Below, in pieces: positions 2,049-14,640 of a stretch of DNA of 64,000 nt (the first letter of the stretch is position 1; each line of letters opens with the position of its first letter). This DNA comes from Salinigranum rubrum (lineage in GTDB: Archaea > Halobacteriota > Halobacteria > Halobacteriales > Haloferacaceae). The notes under the pieces were generated by a model, which saw only the letters and a program-made list of their open reading frames with translations, was not told the origin of the DNA and ran no database searches. Location of the stretch: contig NZ_CP026309.1 of NCBI RefSeq assembly GCF_002906575.1, forward strand, positions 2,356,001 through 2,420,000. Reading direction: 5' to 3'. A program made the translations under genes and the position numbers.

Positions 2049-3296
2049 TCACGAGAGGCCGCTTCCGGGGAGGGCGACCACGTTCTCCCGCCCGATTCGG
2101 AACGTTTCGATCTCCTCTGCGTCGCGGAGCTTCCCGATGACCTGACTCGTCTTCGCGTCCGACCAGTCGAGTTCGGCGGCGACCGCCTGCTGTTTCATCC
2201 GACCAGCGTTGTGTTCGAGAAGCGCCAGCACCCGTTCCTCGTTGCTGAGGAGTTCGTCCTCCCAGGGATCGGGAGTGCCCTCGTCAGCCTCGGCCTCGGC
2301 GGGTCCAGCGTCCTCGGCGGCTTCGACGGTCCCGTCGTCTCCCGTGTCGGCGTCGACGCTCTCGGCACCGGTCGCCGTCGCCTCCGCAGCCGCCTCGGAA
2401 CCGTCCCCGCTCCCGGCCGGGGGGACGGAGCCACTGTCGGCATCGCTATCTGCGCGACTCGTCTCCTGTGAGCGCCGCCACAGCACGACCCCGAGCACAG
2501 CAATCACGAGGAGAAGCGCCCCGCCAGCGACGACGAGCACCGACGGTCCGCCGTCGGTGGTGTCGTCTCCGCCCTCCCCGTCGCCGCCGTCACCGTTGCC
2601 GCCGGTCGCACCGGTCGCGCTTCCGCCCCCCTCGGCTTCCGAGGCTGTCGGCGACAGGGAGACGACCGGCTCCCCGTCGGCGAAGTCCGTCGGTCCGATC
2701 CACACCACGGCGTCGTCGCGCCGTTCGTCCGGGGTCGGCTGGACGGCCGTCGTCGCGTACCCGTCGGGCCACGCCACGACGAACGTGGTCTGGCGGTCGA
2801 GGAACAGCCCCGCGAGCGCGTCCCCGGCTTCGAGGGTCTCCCCGCTCGCGACGGCGAAGCCCGTCCAGTCGAACCGGTAGGTGACGACGCCGTACTCCTG
2901 CGGGAGCTGTTGGCGCGTCGCGCGGACCGAGACGTTCTCCACCCGCATCTCCCGACCGGTCGCGTTCTCGGCCGCCCGGGCCGTCGCACCCATCCGCTCC
3001 GCGAACGTCGACGTGTACGCCGTCTCGTTGGCCTCGACGTCCGTCCGGAGCGACTCGAACGCCGCCGTGGTGTTCTCGTCGTTCAACCGCACCCGGTACT
3101 CGACCGTCCAGCGGGCGTCGCCGTTCGAGCGCAGATCCGCGCGCAACAGGACGCCGTCGGGCTCGATTCCCTCGTCGCCGAGTTGCGCTGCTCCAGGGGC
3201 CGGTGCGTGCTCCGTTGCGCCGGCAGCGCCCGCGACGACGCCGACGACCGCGAGCGTGACGAGGAGAAAGACGCCGGCGCGACGGACACCACACAT
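2049..3296 (-). CDS. Membrane-anchored winged-helix regulator, 415 aa
   Basis: The domain order is a signal peptide (residues 1-27), then an extracytoplasmic beta-rich domain (~35-230) and a Gly/Asp-rich linker. One transmembrane helix (about 255-277) follows, then an acidic Ala/Glu-rich linker and a C-terminal winged-helix domain (last ~65 residues, starting near LLSNEERVLALLEHN). This layout is typical of haloarchaeal membrane one-component regulators, in which an outside sensor is joined to a cytoplasmic MarR-like DNA-binding domain. The start at 3296 sits about 30 bases downstream of TTTAAG (positions 3325-3330) and at the signal peptide; a longer frame exists but begins upstream of that promoter. 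The ligand and targets are unknown. The neighbouring secreted protein is a plausible partner only by position. Confidence 0.7.
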   Translation of the reverse strand: MCGVRRAGVFLLVTLAVVGVVAGAAGATEHAPAPGAAQLGDEGIEPDGVLLRADLRSNGDARWTVEYRVRLNDENTTAAFESLRTDVEANETAYTSTFAERMGATARAAENATGREMRVENVSVRATRQQLPQEYGVVTYRFDWTGFAVASGETLEAGDALAGLFLDRQTTFVVAWPDGYATTAVQPTPDERRDDAVVWIGPTDFADGEPVVSLSPTASEAEGGGSATGATGGNGDGGDGEGGDDTTDGGPSVLVVAGGALLLVIAVLGVVLWRRSQETSRADSDADSGSVPPAGSGDGSEAAAEATATGAESVDADTGDDGTVEAAEDAGPAEAEADEGTPDPWEDELLSNEERVLALLEHNAGRMKQQAVAAELDWSDAKTSQVIGKLRDAEEIETFRIGRENVVALPGSGLS

Positions 3297-3511
3297 GCTC
3301 GTCCGGTGGAATGGGTGGCGCTGGCTTAAACGTTGTACGAACGGCGCGGGCCGTGCGACGCCGAGAGACGATTCGAGAGACCGCGTGTCACGACCATCGA
3401 CGCGCCGGTGACCGGTCGCCTCAAACACTCTGGCGCGTCCGACAGTTCACGGTATCAGAACTGCACACTCGGGACGATACCGTTATACGGGAAAACGGCC
3501 GACGATGTCCC

Positions 3512-4120
3512 GTGTCGTTCGACGACCCCATCGCCGAGAAACTCCTGAGCGACTCCCCGTACGAACGGCTCCGCGCCCGACAGCTCAGCTACTTCGTACA
3601 GCCCATCGACCGCAAACTCGCCTGGCAGAGCTACCTGCTCTTCGCGCTCGCCGGCCTCCTCCCCGTCCTCTCCGTCCTCCCCACTGCCGTCCGACGGACG
3701 TACCTCCCGACGGTCGCATCGAGCAGCCCGAAACTCGCGTTCGTCGCCCTCGTCGCAGTCGTCTTCGTCGCCGGCACCGGCGTCGGCCACGCGCTCGTCG
3801 AGTACGTCCGAGTCGAACGCGGTCCGCTCGACGAGCGACAGGCCCGCGAACTGGTGACGTTCGAGAGCCTCTGTTCGATGCTCGGGTTCGGCACGGGGGG
3901 CCTCGCGACCGCCTCGACGTACGCGCTCGTCCTCCTGGGGTTCGGCGGTCGGGACCTCCTGAGCGCGTTCCTCGCCGCCGGCGGCGGGAACCCGTTCGAG
4001 CCCTCGACGCTCGGCGTCACCGTCGGCTTCGTCGCCATCGTCGCGCTCCTGTGTGCCGTGGCGCTTCAGACGCTCTCGGCGTACCTCCACGTCCGGGCGT
4101 GTCTCGCCGACGGGGTGTGA
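3512..4120 (+). CDS. Multi-pass membrane protein, 202 aa, GTG start
   Basis: The protein has a soluble amino-terminal stretch of about 35 residues, then roughly four transmembrane helices separated by an acidic/basic loop (near VEYVRVERGPLDERQ). The GTG start is chosen because a TATA element (GTTATACGG, near 3482-3489) lies about 27 bases upstream, consistent with a leaderless transcript. The open frame extends further upstream, but only through non-conserved-looking Arg-rich sequence. No known family is recognised. It is divergent from the winged-helix gene at 2049-3296. Confidence 0.6.
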   Translation: MSFDDPIAEKLLSDSPYERLRARQLSYFVQPIDRKLAWQSYLLFALAGLLPVLSVLPTAVRRTYLPTVASSSPKLAFVALVAVVFVAGTGVGHALVEYVRVERGPLDERQARELVTFESLCSMLGFGTGGLATASTYALVLLGFGGRDLLSAFLAAGGGNPFEPSTLGVTVGFVAIVALLCAVALQTLSAYLHVRACLADGV

Positions 4121-8986: not shown

Positions 8987-10012
8987 TCACACGTGCGTGT
9001 GTCGGGCGGGCGACTGCTGCTGTTCGACGACGCCCAGCGTCTTCTCGTCCAGTTCCACCAGGTGACAGAGCGGGTTCCCCGGGTACACCACCGGGTTCTC
9101 CAGGACGCCGACGAGTACGCCCGTGAAGGGCGCTTTCACGGTGGTGTTGTCGTCCTTGAACGGGTTGGTGATGGTGCAGATGCGGTCGCCGATGTGGACG
9201 AGCGACCCCACCTCGTAGTGCATGTCGACGATGCCGCCGACGTCGGCGCGAATCCACGTCTTCTCCTGGTTGTCCGTGATGACTGTCCGCCAACCGGGCC
9301 ACCGGACGAGGCTCGCGTCGCGGAGGCTGTACTCGGCGAACACCGACTCGACGCCCGCCAGCGCGTCGTCGATGAGTCGCCGCTGGAACCGGTGCGCCTC
9401 GCCCATCTCGATGGTGATGGTGGGAACGCCCGCGTCGGTCGCCTCGCCCCTGAGCGTGCCCTCGGGCCCCTCGCCGTCGATGATGACGTTCGAGCCGAAC
9501 GCCCGGGCGAGGCGGGCGACGCGCTTGTTCTTCATGTCCGCGCGCACGTGGAGCATGTTCGTCCTCCCTCTCGTCGAGGTGTGGAAATCCAGCCCGAGGT
9601 CACACGGCTCGATGAAGTTCTGGAAGATGCGGTACGCCATCCGCTTCGCCGAGGTTGAGTCCTCGTGCCCGGGGAACGAGCGGTTCAGGTCGCGGTCGTA
9701 GATGGGGAGGTACCGCTCCTGTGCGAGGAACGCGGGGACGTTCAGCACGGGCATGCAGACGAGCGTCCCCGCCAGGTCGGAGAGGTCCCACTCGAAGGCC
9801 ACCTCGCGGACGACCTCGATACCGTTGAGTTCGTCCCCGTGGGCGGCGGCGGTGAGAAACACCGTCGGTCCCTCCCGCTCGCCGTTGATGATGGTGACCG
9901 GGATGCGGACGGGGTCGCCGAGATACGTCTCGGAGATCCCGTAGCGGATGTTCTGGGTCTCCCCGGGGTCGACCCGCCCGCCGTTGTACGTGAAGGCCCC
10001 GTCAGTGGTCAT
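8987..10012 (-). CDS. AstE/AspA-family zinc deacylase, 341 aa
   Basis: This is a zinc-dependent hydrolase of the succinylglutamate desuccinylase/aspartoacylase family. Visible metal ligands are the HxxE motif in AAAHGDELNG (His58, Glu61) and a later His in LDFHTSTRG (His144). A catalytic Glu is expected in TIEMGEAHR. The C-terminal third is beta-rich (about 265-330) and resembles the biotinyl-lipoyl-like swivelling domain found in this family. ATTTAAATA (10035-10043) lies 27 bases before the ATG, fixing the start. It is divergent from the RimK-retropepsin gene across 171 bases. Family members remove acyl or glutamyl groups; the substrate here is unknown and the pairing suggests reversal of the neighbour's amide ligation. 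Confidence 0.8.
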   Translation of the reverse strand: MTTDGAFTYNGGRVDPGETQNIRYGISETYLGDPVRIPVTIINGEREGPTVFLTAAAHGDELNGIEVVREVAFEWDLSDLAGTLVCMPVLNVPAFLAQERYLPIYDRDLNRSFPGHEDSTSAKRMAYRIFQNFIEPCDLGLDFHTSTRGRTNMLHVRADMKNKRVARLARAFGSNVIIDGEGPEGTLRGEATDAGVPTITIEMGEAHRFQRRLIDDALAGVESVFAEYSLRDASLVRWPGWRTVITDNQEKTWIRADVGGIVDMHYEVGSLVHIGDRICTITNPFKDDNTTVKAPFTGVLVGVLENPVVYPGNPLCHLVELDEKTLGVVEQQQSPARHTHV

Positions 10013-10183
10013 TGTTCGGTACTGTTCCCCCGTGTATTTAAATCGTGAGCCACCGGATATCGGGGTCCTCGTGACGGTCTGTCGGTCCCCGTCGCCCGTG
10101 TGAATCCCGCTCGTGTCTGTGAGACTGACGCAGGCGAGAGGCCAACCGTCAACCCTTTTTCGCCCGCTCCGAAATCCAGTGCC

Positions 10184-11542
10184 ATGCCTGAACAGGACGA
10201 CGTACGTGTCGGTGTTCTCAGCCTCCACAACAGCAAGGAGACGAAGGCGATTCTCAACGCCGTCGAGGACCTGGGCCACACGCCGGTGTGGCTCCGCCGC
10301 GAGAACACCGCCGTCAACATCGAGGGGAGCGAGGTGACCGTCGAACCCGACATCGACATCATCGCCAACCGCCTGCTGCTCTCGAACACCGAAGAGCCCG
10401 CGGAACTGCTGGGGCTGGCGACGACGTTCAACCGCATCCGCCCGATGCTGAACGAACCCGACGCCGTCCTGACCGCCATCCACAAGTTCGCCACGGCGGC
10501 GACGCTGGCGAACTGGAACATCCAGGTGCCCGACGCCCTCTTGGCGCTCTCGAACGAGCGACTCAACCAGGGCCGCCAGCGCTTCGGCGACGTCGGCGTC
10601 TACAAGACCGCCATCGGCACGCACGGCGGGGGAACGTGGAAGGTCGACCTCACCGACGCGGTCAATCCGAAAGTCGGGAACCGACAGGCGTTCTTACAGG
10701 ACCTCATCGACCGCGACGAGTCCCGGCACCGCGACCTCCGCGTCTACATCGTCGACGGGAACGTCATCGGCGCGATGTACCGCTACGCCCCCGACGGCGA
10801 CTGGCGGACGAACGTCGCGCTCGGCGGCGCGGTCGAGGACGCCACCGACGAGATGCCGACCGAGGCGCGCGAGACGGCGCTGTACGCCGCGGACGTCATG
10901 GGGCTCGACTACGTCGGCGTCGACCTCGTCGAGGGCGAGGACGGCTGGTTCGTCCTCGAAGTGAACCCGACGGCGGGGTTCAAAGGCCTCCACGAGGCGA
11001 CGGGGAAGAGCGCCGGCCCCTACATCGCAAAGCTCGCCATCGAAACCGCCGGCGGCGAGGTCGACGACGAGCGCGTGGAGGAGCTCTCGTCGACGCTCGA
11101 CGACTCGACGCCCTCGTGCAAGCCGCGCTCCGCCGCGACCAAGGCCGAGGACACCCCGATCATCGGCTACATCGAGGACGTCGTCGTCTCGGGCACCAGC
11201 GGTTCCACGCAGACGCTCGCGAAGTCCGACACGGGCGCGACCCGGACCAGCATCGACACGTCGCTCGCCGCCGAAATCGGAGCCGGCCCCATCAAGAGCA
11301 TGACGCGCGTGAAGAGCGGGTCGGTCAAGGGTGGGAAAGCACGCCCGGTCGTCGACCTCGTCATCGGCATCGGCGGGCGACAGCACACCGTCACCGCGAG
11401 CGTCGAGGACCGCTCGCACATGGACTACCCCGTGCTCCTCGGGCGGGACATCCTCGAACACTACCGCGTCGACGTCCGTCGGCGCTCCGACAGCGAGGAC
11501 CGCAACCTCGAAGAGGAGGAAGAGGAGTTCGGGCTGGAGTGA
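10184..11542 (+). CDS. rimK: RimK ATP-grasp amidoligase fused to retropepsin-like RimB domain
   Basis: The 452-residue protein has two parts. Residues 1-290 are a RimK-type ATP-grasp ligase, with the Gly-rich loop GTHGGGTWKVD (145-155), RDLRVYIVDG (183-192) and the metal-binding ExN in LEVNPTAGFKG (258-268). Residues ~325-435 match the so-called ATP-dependent zinc protease (PF05618, RimB) of retropepsin fold, with DTGA at 349-352 and LLGRDIL at 418-424. The tail is a run of glutamates. RimK enzymes add Glu or similar amino acids to protein C-termini (ribosomal S6 in E. coli) or to small molecules. The substrate here is unknown. A T-rich promoter element is near 10153-10160. The fusion and the divergent deacylase make this a modification/de-modification module. 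Confidence 0.85.
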   Translation: MPEQDDVRVGVLSLHNSKETKAILNAVEDLGHTPVWLRRENTAVNIEGSEVTVEPDIDIIANRLLLSNTEEPAELLGLATTFNRIRPMLNEPDAVLTAIHKFATAATLANWNIQVPDALLALSNERLNQGRQRFGDVGVYKTAIGTHGGGTWKVDLTDAVNPKVGNRQAFLQDLIDRDESRHRDLRVYIVDGNVIGAMYRYAPDGDWRTNVALGGAVEDATDEMPTEARETALYAADVMGLDYVGVDLVEGEDGWFVLEVNPTAGFKGLHEATGKSAGPYIAKLAIETAGGEVDDERVEELSSTLDDSTPSCKPRSAATKAEDTPIIGYIEDVVVSGTSGSTQTLAKSDTGATRTSIDTSLAAEIGAGPIKSMTRVKSGSVKGGKARPVVDLVIGIGGRQHTVTASVEDRSHMDYPVLLGRDILEHYRVDVRRRSDSEDRNLEEEEEEFGLE

Positions 11543-11543
11543 C

Positions 11544-11696
11544 GTGGCTGACTCACCCGACGAACGGCCGACTCGATGCCCTCACTGTGGGTCGCGCGAC
11601 ATCCGCGAGCGTCGCGAGACCGGCGGGGGCTGGCGGAAGGTGTACCGGTGTGCGGCGTGCGGCGCTCGGGTGATGTCGGACGACGAGGACGACTGA
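11544..11696 (+). CDS. Small zinc-ribbon protein coupled to rimK, 50 aa
   Basis: A GTG codon one base after the rimK stop opens a 50-residue frame with CPHC and CAAC knuckles (residues ~12-15 and ~36-39) separated by a basic segment, and a DDEDD tail. The layout is that of a ribosome- or RNA-polymerase-like zinc ribbon. The tight spacing implies translational coupling with rimK, so it may act in the same pathway. Too short to assign a function. Confidence 0.6.
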   Translation: MADSPDERPTRCPHCGSRDIRERRETGGGWRKVYRCAACGARVMSDDEDD

Positions 11697-11705
11697 CGAC
11701 CCCGA

Positions 11706-12326
11706 CTACTCCTCGACGACTTCGGCCACCGACTCGGCGATGTCCTCTTTCACCCGCCAGAGGTAGAGGCTCGCGTAGCTCCGGTACGGTCGCCACGCCT
11801 CGGCCTGCTCCACCATCTCCTCGCGGGAGAGGTCGCCGTACAGCGTCCGCATCCCCTTCCGGATACCCAGGTCGCCGACGGGGAAGACGTCCTGCCGACC
11901 GAGGGCGAACATCAGCTGCATCTCGGCGGTCCACGTCCCGACGCCGGTGATGGACGTGAGTTCGTCGATTACCGTCTCGTCGTCCATTCCGGCGAACGTC
12001 TCGTGGGAGTAGTCGTTCGCCAGGAACGCCTCGGCGACGTTCTTCACGTACCGGGTCTTCTGCCGGGAGAGCCCCGCTTCCTTGAGTGTGGTCTCGTCCG
12101 CGGCGAGCACGCCTTCGGGGGTCATCTCGACGGCGTCGAAGAGTCGCTCGCGGGTCGCCGCGGCCGACGCCATCGACACCTGCTGGCGGAGGATGGAAGT
12201 GACGAGTCGCTCGAAGAGGTCCGGCGCGGGGTCGATGTCGAGTTCGCCGTGTTCGTCGATGAGGGCCGCGAACACCTCGTCGGTGGCGCGGAGGTGGTCG
12301 TGGGGGTCACTGTCCGTCTGTGTCAC
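11706..12326 (-). CDS. alkA: DNA-3-methyladenine glycosylase II-like (HhH-GPD)
   Basis: This 206-residue protein belongs to the helix-hairpin-helix glycosylase superfamily. The hairpin ITGVGTWTAEMQL is followed by the catalytic Asp region VFPVGDLGIRKG, as in AlkA-type enzymes that excise alkylated bases. It is shorter than E. coli AlkA because it lacks the N-terminal TBP-like domain. I chose a GTG start (VTQTDSDPHDHL) with a GAGGAA purine run before it; a longer frame upstream is Arg-rich and unlikely. It converges on the rimK operon. Confidence 0.8.
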   Translation of the reverse strand: MTQTDSDPHDHLRATDEVFAALIDEHGELDIDPAPDLFERLVTSILRQQVSMASAAATRERLFDAVEMTPEGVLAADETTLKEAGLSRQKTRYVKNVAEAFLANDYSHETFAGMDDETVIDELTSITGVGTWTAEMQLMFALGRQDVFPVGDLGIRKGMRTLYGDLSREEMVEQAEAWRPYRSYASLYLWRVKEDIAESVAEVVEE

Positions 12327-12421
12327 GCTTTCCTCTACGTCCGCGCGGCGATAGTGGTTTCGCCGGCCGTCCACCGACGGCCGGTCCAGTCGGGTCCGGC
12401 CGTCCGTGCGATGCAGTGGCG

Positions 12422-12463: not shown

Positions 12464-12600
12464 GCTTCACCGCGTCCGTGCACCGCACGACAGCGTTCGT
12501 GGTCTCACCGCCGTCGACCCGACTTCCTCCCCGACAATCGGCTCGTCCGTCGCACTCGCCTCGGGGAAAGCTTCAACCGACGACCTACCGACGAGCGCGT

Positions 12601-14640
12601 ATGGACGACGCCGACAGCGACACGACCGCGGAGACGGACGCCGACCCTGACACCGCCACCGACGCGGTTCGCTCCGTCGACGACATCTCGACCATCGCCG
12701 TCCTCGGCGCGGGGAACATGGGTCACGGCATCGCCGAGGTCGCGGCGCTCGCGGGCTTCGAGGTCTTCCTGCGCGACATCGACGACGACCTCGTCCGGGC
12801 GGGCTACGACCGGATCGAGTGGAGCCTCGGGAAACTCGCCGAGAAGGACCGTATCTCCGACGACGAGGCCGACGCCGCGCTCGACCGCGTCACGCCGGTC
12901 GTCGACCTCGCGGCCGCCGTCGGCGACGCCGACGTGGTGGTCGAAGTCGTCCCCGAGCGCATGGAGGTGAAGAAGGACGTCTACGCCGAGGTCGAAGCAC
13001 ACGCCCCCGACCGGGCGTTGTTCGTGACGAACACCTCCTCGCTCTCTATCACCGAACTCGGTCGAGAGACCGACCGGCCCGAGCGGTTCTGCGGGATGCA
13101 CTTCTTCAACCCGCCCGTCCGGATGCGACTGGTCGAGGTCATTTCCGGGGCCGACTCGACGGAGGAGACGCTCTCGACCGTCGAGGCGCTCGCCGAACGC
13201 CTCGGGAAGACGCCCGTCCGGGTCCACAAGGACAGCCCGGGCTTCGTCGTCAACCGCGTGCTCGTCCCGCTGTTGAACGAGGCCGCCTGGGCCGTCCACG
13301 ACGGCGAGGCCACCGTCGCCGAAGTCGACTCCACGACCAAGTACGGCCTCGGACTCCCGATGGGCAGCTTCGAACTCGCCGACCAGGTCGGCATCGACGT
13401 CGCCCTGCACGTCCTCGAGTACATGCACGACCAACTCGGCGACGCCTACGAGCCGTGTCCCCTCCTCGCAGAGAAAGTCGCCGCCGGTGACCTCGGGACG
13501 AAGTCGGGTGCCGGGTTCTACGACTACGAGTCGAGAGGAGCCGAGATTCCGACGGACGAGGTGCGAGAGGAGGTCCGCGAACGCCTCCTGGCGGTGATGG
13601 CCAACGAGGTTGCCGGTCTCGTCTCGAACGACGTCGCCGACGCCGAGGCGGTCGACCGCGCGCTGCAACTCGGCGCGGGTTTCCCCGACGGCCCGGCGAA
13701 GATGGCCGACGACGTGGGTCTGGATACCCTCGTCGCGTGCCTCGACGAGCGCCACGCGAAGACGGGCGCCGCGCGGTACGAGGTCGTCGAACACTTGCGT
13801 GACCTCGCCGCGAGCGAGGAAGGATTGCTCGAAGAGAAGGCCGAAGCGGCGGACGACGTCGGGTACGACACGCTCAGTGTCGACCGAGACGGGGGCGTGA
13901 CCCACCTCGTCATCGACCGCCCGCACCGGCTGAACAGTATCGACGTCGACCTGTTGACCGACCTCGACGACGCCCTCACCGCGTGCGAGGAGGACGACGA
14001 GACGCGGACGGTCCTGCTGACCGGTGCGGGCGACCGGGCGTTCTCGGCCGGGGCGGACTTCCAGCGGGTCGCCGCCGAGTTGGATTCTCGATCCGTGGTC
14101 GACGTCTCCCGGGAAGGCCAGCGGGTGTTCGGCCGGTTCGAGTCCTCGCCGCTCCCGGTCGTCGCGGCCGTCGACGGGTTCTGCCTCGGCGGCGGGCTGG
14201 AACTGGCGGCCTGTGCGGACCTCCGAATCGCCACCCGGCGCTCGACGTTCGGCCTCCCCGAGCACAACCTCGGCATCATGCCCGGCTGGGGCGGCACCCA
14301 GCGCCTCCGCCACATCGTCGGCGAGGGTCGCGCGAAGGAGATTATCCTCACCGCCGAGCGGTACGACGCCGAGACGATGGCCGACTACGGCTTCGTCAAC
14401 AGGGTGGTCGCCAACGACTCGCTCGACGAGCGGGCGCTCGAACTCGCCCGTGACCTCGCGGCCGGGCCGCCCATCGCGCAGGCGTACACGAAGCGCGTGA
14501 TGCTCCGCGGCCGCGACGACACCGACGCGGGGCTCGAACTCGAAGCGCAGGCGTTCGGCCACGTCTTCGGGACCGACGACGCCAGCGAGGGAATCGCGGC
14601 GTTCGACTCCGACCGCGACCCGGAGTTCACCGGCGAGTGA
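12601..14640 (+). CDS. 3-hydroxyacyl-CoA dehydrogenase / enoyl-CoA hydratase fusion
   Basis: The 679-residue enzyme carries two consecutive beta-oxidation steps. Residues ~30-210 form the NAD-binding domain (VLGAGNMGHGIAE), with the HFFNPPVRMRLVEVI signature of 3-hydroxyacyl-CoA dehydrogenase. Residues ~215-400 hold its C-terminal dimerisation domains. Residues ~420-675 are a crotonase domain with the oxyanion-hole/active-site segments AGDRAFSAGAD, GFCLGGGLELAACADLRIA and GLPEHNLGIMPGWGGTQRL. The domain order is reversed relative to bacterial FadB (dehydrogenase first), which is common in archaea. The start is at the first Met after an Arg-rich upstream frame. The gene is isolated, so substrate chain length cannot be read from context. 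Confidence 0.9.
   Translation: MDDADSDTTAETDADPDTATDAVRSVDDISTIAVLGAGNMGHGIAEVAALAGFEVFLRDIDDDLVRAGYDRIEWSLGKLAEKDRISDDEADAALDRVTPVVDLAAAVGDADVVVEVVPERMEVKKDVYAEVEAHAPDRALFVTNTSSLSITELGRETDRPERFCGMHFFNPPVRMRLVEVISGADSTEETLSTVEALAERLGKTPVRVHKDSPGFVVNRVLVPLLNEAAWAVHDGEATVAEVDSTTKYGLGLPMGSFELADQVGIDVALHVLEYMHDQLGDAYEPCPLLAEKVAAGDLGTKSGAGFYDYESRGAEIPTDEVREEVRERLLAVMANEVAGLVSNDVADAEAVDRALQLGAGFPDGPAKMADDVGLDTLVACLDERHAKTGAARYEVVEHLRDLAASEEGLLEEKAEAADDVGYDTLSVDRDGGVTHLVIDRPHRLNSIDVDLLTDLDDALTACEEDDETRTVLLTGAGDRAFSAGADFQRVAAELDSRSVVDVSREGQRVFGRFESSPLPVVAAVDGFCLGGGLELAACADLRIATRRSTFGLPEHNLGIMPGWGGTQRLRHIVGEGRAKEIILTAERYDAETMADYGFVNRVVANDSLDERALELARDLAAGPPIAQAYTKRVMLRGRDDTDAGLELEAQAFGHVFGTDDASEGIAAFDSDRDPEFTGE

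Follow-up and report, generated by a model that had tools for sequence, protein, structure and literature searches.

What could an enzyme that appears equipped both to build and to trim glutamate chains be acting on in haloarchaea? The question is raised by one gene of Salinigranum rubrum, which lies in a stretch of 64,000 nucleotides (contig NZ_CP026309.1, positions 2,356,001 to 2,420,000; hereafter the window, in whose numbering coordinates are given) and encodes, in a single 452-residue protein, a RimK-like ATP-grasp ligase followed by a RimB-like retropepsin domain and an acidic tail. To our knowledge, C-terminal polyglutamylation by RimK has been documented only for bacterial ribosomal protein S6, and archaea would not, as far as we know, be expected to have S6. 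An earlier note, made from the sequence of the window, had read the protein as a self-contained protein-tagging enzyme. On balance, we favor the view that the fusion belongs to a reversible C-terminal glutamylation module, which would act on its own tail and/or on other proteins by ligation, endo-cleavage, and exo-trimming.

A ligase and a retropepsin in one protein

The open reading frame and its division into two domains came out as the earlier note had drawn them (Table 1), including the ligase at residues 1-290 and a DTG-containing domain placed at about 325-435 and now delimited to 322-436. The ligase half matches PF08443 (RimK) over residues 100-274 with an E-value of 2.2e-24 (86.5 bits against a Pfam cut-off of 21). 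PF05618, which the note had expected in the C-terminal part, is matched partially, over residues 371-434 (E 5.2e-9, 36.6 bits against a cut-off of 27). The DTG motif (residues 349-351) lies upstream of this matched stretch; weaker Pfam matches to clan AA aspartic protease families reach further upstream and include it, and profile-profile alignment of the domain with methanogen RimB (hhalign) covers 100 columns and sets DTG on DTG (probability 94.9, E 4.5e-8). The RimB equivalog NF052261 is absent from the NCBIfam matches of the fusion up to E 0.1, where RloA models alone appear, below cut-off. AlphaFold2 gives a mean predicted local distance difference test (pLDDT) score of 86 for the whole fusion and 88 for the retropepsin domain alone, and the best Foldseek structures are LysX/ArgX, then RimK, for the ATP-grasp half, and RloA (9g58/9g59), Lpg0085 (2pma, DUF785), and then HIV-1 protease for the C-terminal domain. 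Sequence, profile, and fold thus all support the retropepsin assignment. An upstream GTG start (10100) was rejected because homology begins near residue 4, and the ATG was retained.

Conservation was counted over 107 fetched fusion copies, full-length or nearly so. The catalytic ATP/Mg residues K100, K141, D248, E260, and N262 of RimK align with K101, K141, D247, E259, and N261 of the fusion, which are conserved together with D184, R186, and R200; the equivalents of RimK K100, K141, R189, R203, D248, E260, and N262 are essentially invariant. Retention of the DTG and ExN motifs across homologues, on which the earlier note had staked its reading, is nearly complete: Glu259 and Asn261 are kept in 106 copies (with one gap) and Asp349 in 105, while Lys141, Arg186, and Arg200 are kept in all 107. 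Among the polyglutamate contacts of RimK, S7, R64, S68, R189, and N262 are kept in the fusion, and R8 and S14 are replaced, by Leu and Glu. In the retropepsin half, K347, R387, and R410, likely counterparts of K46, R114, and R137 of RloA, are kept in 99, 99, and 103 copies. In RloA, polyglutamate cleavage was affected most strongly by R114A and R137A (PMC12239564), and the alignment, with an identical 23-residue spacing, makes R387 and R410 their probable counterparts.

We predict with good confidence that both halves are active, one as a ligase and the other as a retropepsin. The retropepsin could instead be functionally degenerate, an accessory domain on an otherwise ordinary RimK-family ligase, as might be imagined from the few paralogues in which the DTG has become EPV, NPA, DPT, DTA, or DTT and the ligase residues are retained. 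We regard this as very improbable, however, because the main orthologues show almost no variation at D349 or at the contact residues.

A glutamate-ended tail and the absence of S6

The glutamate-rich tail mentioned in the earlier note is real, and better founded than the note could know. The last strand of the retropepsin is followed by an acidic tail that is disordered in the AlphaFold model (pLDDT below 50 at residues 439-452) and variable in length, mostly 3-20 residues. Among the 89 main orthologues, 99% of tailed copies end in Glu and 74 end in Glu-Glu, and Asp never occupies position -1 or -2, yet is common further upstream. When each of the 80 distinct tails was shuffled, 9 Glu-Glu ends were expected (maximum 19 in 5000 shuffles) against 65 observed, a comparison in which the orthologues are related and the draws not independent. 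For background, Glu is the last residue of 17% and Asp of 11% of the open reading frames in 464 kb sampled from the genome of the window, and 3.1% close with Glu-Glu. Tails that differ widely in length and sequence share the Glu end, as do most paralogues.

RimK attaches Glu at the C-terminal residue, through its alpha-carboxylate. Its native acceptor in Escherichia coli, S6, ends in GDSEE (PMC11957791), and by analogy the haloarchaeal tails look like such an acceptor end. RimB cuts runs of ~5-6 or more Glu, does not cut Asp, and stimulates RimK (PMC11957791). The Glu runs encoded in the haloarchaeal tails are mostly 2-5 long, near or below the cutting length, so that lengthening would turn a tail into a substrate of the protease. 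That the tail of the fusion is indeed an acceptor seems to us a real possibility that falls short of being probable. The same short runs would also allow the tail to occupy the retropepsin cleft uncut, as a docking or autoinhibitory element, with other proteins as the substrates. This is unlikely, because an exact terminal Glu with Asp excluded corresponds to the requirement of a ligase acceptor, and binding at an internal site would place no such constraint on the final residue.

S6 (PF01250) was found in none of 20 haloarchaea, the genome of the window included, and the same search was positive in 10 control bacteria. With no S6 to accept glutamate, the fusion might make free poly-alpha-glutamate from glutamate, as RimB-stimulated RimK does; fusing the halves would lock the stimulated state, the retropepsin and an AstE-like hydrolase encoded next to the fusion would turn the polymer over, and protein modification would be secondary. 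We give this little credence, as it leaves the conserved Glu at the protein's own C terminus unexplained.

An AstE-like hydrolase as third component

That the enzyme is self-contained, as the earlier note had it, is now doubtful, because a third gene is genetically tied to the fusion. This gene, which encodes an AstE/AspA-like zinc hydrolase, starts 172 bp away from it. Across 116 Halobacteria genomes, 106 have both genes, nine have neither, and one has AstE only; put differently, a close AstE orthologue is present in 106/106 genomes with the fusion and missing from nine of the 10 without an intact one (naive hypergeometric probability ~1e-12, a value inflated by relatedness). Single members of g3, g18, g37, and g31 lack both genes although the other genomes of these genera carry the pair, and in the g31 genome a truncated fragment of the fusion remains. 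Joint absence inside at least four genera points to recurrent co-loss. The two genes are divergent at 79 of the 90 main-type loci, and 66 of those 79 gaps measure 76-272 bp.

The association extends beyond haloarchaea. Scanning genomes with a methanogen RimB profile led to 80 named bacterial and methanogen loci. A RimK gene is present at 67 of these and an AstE homologue at 62. At 58 loci the two lie together in one stretch, usually arranged rimB-rimK-astE; several of the loci without the full module are short contigs. Within the Methanosarcinaceae, AstE accompanies RimB in 20 of 22 genomes; of the remaining 79, five have an entire AstE gene. Zinc ligands and catalytic Glu (H58, E61, H144, E202) are common to the haloarchaeal and bacterial module AstEs, and a further set of residues (R100-Y101, R188, E205, R208, W253, R255) is common to module AstEs and missing from a more distant haloarchaeal AstE-like family.

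AstE-type enzymes hydrolyze amide bonds to amino acids whose carboxylate is free, so a role as an exo-deglutamylase would be chemically natural. In Pseudomonas, RimK and RimB together leave chains of ~4 Glu, and an "as-yet-unidentified protease" must restore unmodified S6 (PMC7343187). The AstE-like hydrolase is a candidate for this missing protease of the Rim literature; whether it trims the chain made by the fusion we consider an even call. AstE as third component is newly noticed here. In the literature searched, which did not take in a 2009 amidoligase survey by Iyer and colleagues that reportedly linked RimK-like ligases with peptidases, we found no paper bringing RimK together with AstE or a desuccinylase in the sense of such a module.

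Distribution and neighboring genes

A fission/fusion or assembly artefact was rejected as the origin of the window gene, because full-length homologues of 60-85% identity occur in 106/116 Halobacteria genomes, making the full-length fusion the normal haloarchaeal form. Second copies, paralogues that have diverged further, account for about 17 of the full-length sequences fetched, and one of them (59% identity, G000:C1:2602133-2603428) is in the genome of the window. Some second copies have an altered DTG and intact ATP-grasp residues (L057 EPV, L060 DTA, L063 DTA, L110 DPT, L111 NPA, L113 DTT) and are possible pseudo-proteases. At locus L117 (genome G110, ~3255-3530, - strand), the fusion is reduced to an 89-residue in-frame remnant, in which both catalytic domains are cleanly deleted from the interior and the first 70 residues run directly into an acidic tail ending in AEE; the divergent AstE gene is intact. 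Haloferax volcanii has a PF05618 match.

In the rest of the phylum outside Halobacteria, the matches listed include only stand-alone RimK-family proteins with no C-terminal half. Genuine stand-alone RimB genes adjoin rimK in Methanosarcinaceae. A stand-alone methanogen retropepsin predating the fusion was considered and rejected: where read, the weak PF05618 hits carry a HExEH-like motif and no DTG, so no ancestor of the fusion was found there. These hits (L139-L152; profile positions 25-138) are to proteins of ~175 residues with a HE(L/M)EH motif, and the profile may be picking up an unrelated family in methanogens. Archaeal rimB-rimK-astE clusters occur in Methanolobus, Methanohalophilus, and relatives (L153-L159, L172), and the RimK of L153 passes the S6-ligase equivalog cut-off although S6 would not be expected in archaea, which suggests either an S6-independent function or transfer from bacteria.

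Two neighbors in the window were considered as partners of the fusion and rejected. A 50-residue zinc-ribbon open reading frame (11544-11696, + strand), which starts one base past the stop codon of the fusion, is not conserved in other haloarchaeal loci, and it was dismissed as a LysW-like carrier. A convergent gene for an HhH-GPD base-excision DNA glycosylase (11706-12410, - strand), occupying the same position in at least one further genome (L117), was dismissed as a conserved substrate tail, since the window copy ends in EE and one orthologue in EG. Beyond it, a long open reading frame (12478-14640, + strand) resembles, by eye, 3-hydroxyacyl-CoA dehydrogenase at its N terminus and enoyl-CoA hydratase at its C terminus, a fusion reported to be common in halophiles (PMC11237513).

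Table 1. Positions in the window of the fusion gene, its parts, and the linked AstE-like gene
Feature	Position	Strand	Remarks
RimK-like ATP-grasp/retropepsin fusion gene, 452 aa	10184-11542	+	ATG 10184 to TGA 11542; full-length homologues in 106/116 Halobacteria
ATP-grasp ligase part, residues 1-290	10184-11053	+	PF08443 core 100-274 = 10481-11005
Linker, residues 291-321	11054-11146	+	Lower model confidence; ends in low-pLDDT stretch 318-321
Retropepsin (RimB-like) domain, residues 322-436	11147-11491	+	PF05618, clan AA hits, hhalign, AlphaFold2, Foldseek
Catalytic DTG motif, residues 349-351	11228-11236	+	D349 in 105/107 homologues
Arg387	11342-11344	+	Aligned with Arg of RPV motif; kept in 99/107; probable counterpart of RloA R114 (polyglutamate contact)
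Arg410 of DRSHM motif	11411-11413	+	Kept in 103/107; probable counterpart of RloA R137
Acidic disordered C-terminal tail, last residue Glu	11492-11539	+	C-terminal Glu in 99% of orthologues; pLDDT < 50
AstE/AspA-like zinc hydrolase (PF24827), linked partner	8987-10012	-	Divergently transcribed; 162 bits against cut-off 25
Intergenic region common to divergent AstE and fusion genes	10013-10183		Between AstE-like gene and fusion

Comparison with known systems

The haloarchaeal protein is not the first fusion of RimB and RimK. Bacterial RimBK hybrids, in Desulfotalea psychrophila (DP2392), Flavobacteriales, and Rhodobacterales, have been published in a survey of bacterial accessions only, and a hybrid cleaves polyglutamylated S6 (PMC11957791). 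These share with the haloarchaeal fusion the RimK ATP-grasp and RimB retropepsin in one polypeptide, but there RimB is N-terminal rather than C-terminal and the hosts are bacteria with S6, whereas the haloarchaeal fusion has divergent domains (no RimK equivalog hit, a shorter retropepsin) and is near-universal in one archaeal class. Given the opposite domain order, an ATP-grasp half that is not a RimK equivalog, and the shorter retropepsin, the simplest reading is that the two kinds of fusion would have arisen independently.

As in Pseudomonas RimABK, a ligase and a retropepsin would work on the same glutamate chain (PMC7343187, PMC11957791), but in that system the genes are separate, RimA and c-di-GMP exert control, S6 is the substrate, and AstE is not described in those two papers. 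Pseudomonas RloABC offers the retropepsin fold, the polyglutamate-contact arginines, and an ATP-grasp partner gene (PMC12239564; PDB 9g58, 9g59), but RloA is secreted with a signal peptide and RloB is a membrane transglutaminase-like partner, whereas the haloarchaeal halves are fused and have no such partner. Closest in content are the methanogen and gammaproteobacterial rimB-rimK-astE clusters (L153-L232), where the same three components are adjacent and AstE has the same subfamily residues; there, however, the components are three separate genes, usually in one direction, and the RimKs are true equivalogs (448 and 459 bits for the two tested). LysX and ArgX ligate to the C-terminal Glu of a carrier protein, LysW. 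The ATP-grasp half resembles them in that their structures (PDB 3vpb, 5k2m) are its best matches, but no LysW-like carrier is conserved beside the fusion.

Discussion

In the glutamylation module that we favor, the ATP-grasp half would use ATP to extend a free C-terminal Glu stepwise with amino acids, most likely alpha-linked glutamate. Acting as a dimer, the retropepsin half would trim the chain once it exceeds ~5 contiguous Glu, and the linked AstE-like zinc hydrolase would take off the remaining C-terminal residues or recycle released oligoglutamate to glutamate. The Glu-ended tail would be an in-built acceptor, making the enzyme's own tail one substrate, and other cellular acceptors ending in Glu would be likely. 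Of the protein-tagging interpretation in the earlier note, the potential to add and trim is in keeping with the conservation of the active sites, whereas glutamate as the donor is something we infer, as probable, for a ligase that is RimK-like but scores below the RimK and S6-ligase equivalog cut-offs.

Several points weigh against this module. The enzyme activity of the fusion is itself predicted, from genes, conserved residues, and models. The fusion narrowly misses the RimK subfamily TIGR00768 (138.5 against an NCBIfam cut-off of 143.4) and misses the S6-ligase equivalog NF007764 widely (58.3 bits against 331), its ATP-grasp half scores nearer to archaeal MptN/LysX-like ligases than to the module RimKs, and two polyglutamate contacts of Pseudomonas RimK, R8 and S14, are Leu14 and Glu19 in the fusion. 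The Glu-Glu end persists in two of six altered-DTG paralogues, which means that the coupling of tail to protease is not strict. The AstE of the window is only distantly related to characterized enzymes and misses all of the known equivalogs, scoring 91.7 against 402.7 for DoeB, 15.3 against 305.65 for AstE, and 36.9 against 180 for aspartoacylase.

Some of these observations would suit a ligase that modifies a small molecule, such as coenzyme F420 or another carboxylate, in the manner of MptN, CofF, and other RimK-family cofactor ligases, with the retropepsin only regulating or trimming an oligoglutamate side chain. The ATP-grasp half scores 111.9 bits to MptN as against 58.3 to the S6-ligase equivalog, LysX/ArgX structures are matched first, and two chain-binding residues of RimK differ. 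A built-in polyglutamate-type retropepsin with conserved basic contacts, the conserved C-terminal Glu of the tail, and an MptN score that does not reach the cut-off of 350 nevertheless make a small-molecule substrate improbable in our view.

A bolder form of the glutamylation module, which we offer as speculation with the chances clearly against it, is a self-tagging enzyme: the ligase would extend its own tail and that of its dimer partner, the retropepsin would clip at ~6 or more Glu, and AstE would reset the stub, so that the tail gauges the glutamate, ATP, or salt state without S6, and AstE homologues would supply the eraser still missing from the bacterial Rim system.

A near-universal haloarchaeal version in genomes without S6 implies a different target for glutamylation chemistry, and the haloarchaeal system can be tested in genetically tractable hosts, Haloferax volcanii among them. 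The link to AstE in bacteria, methanogens, and haloarchaea provides a concrete candidate for the deglutamylase required by the Pseudomonas work.
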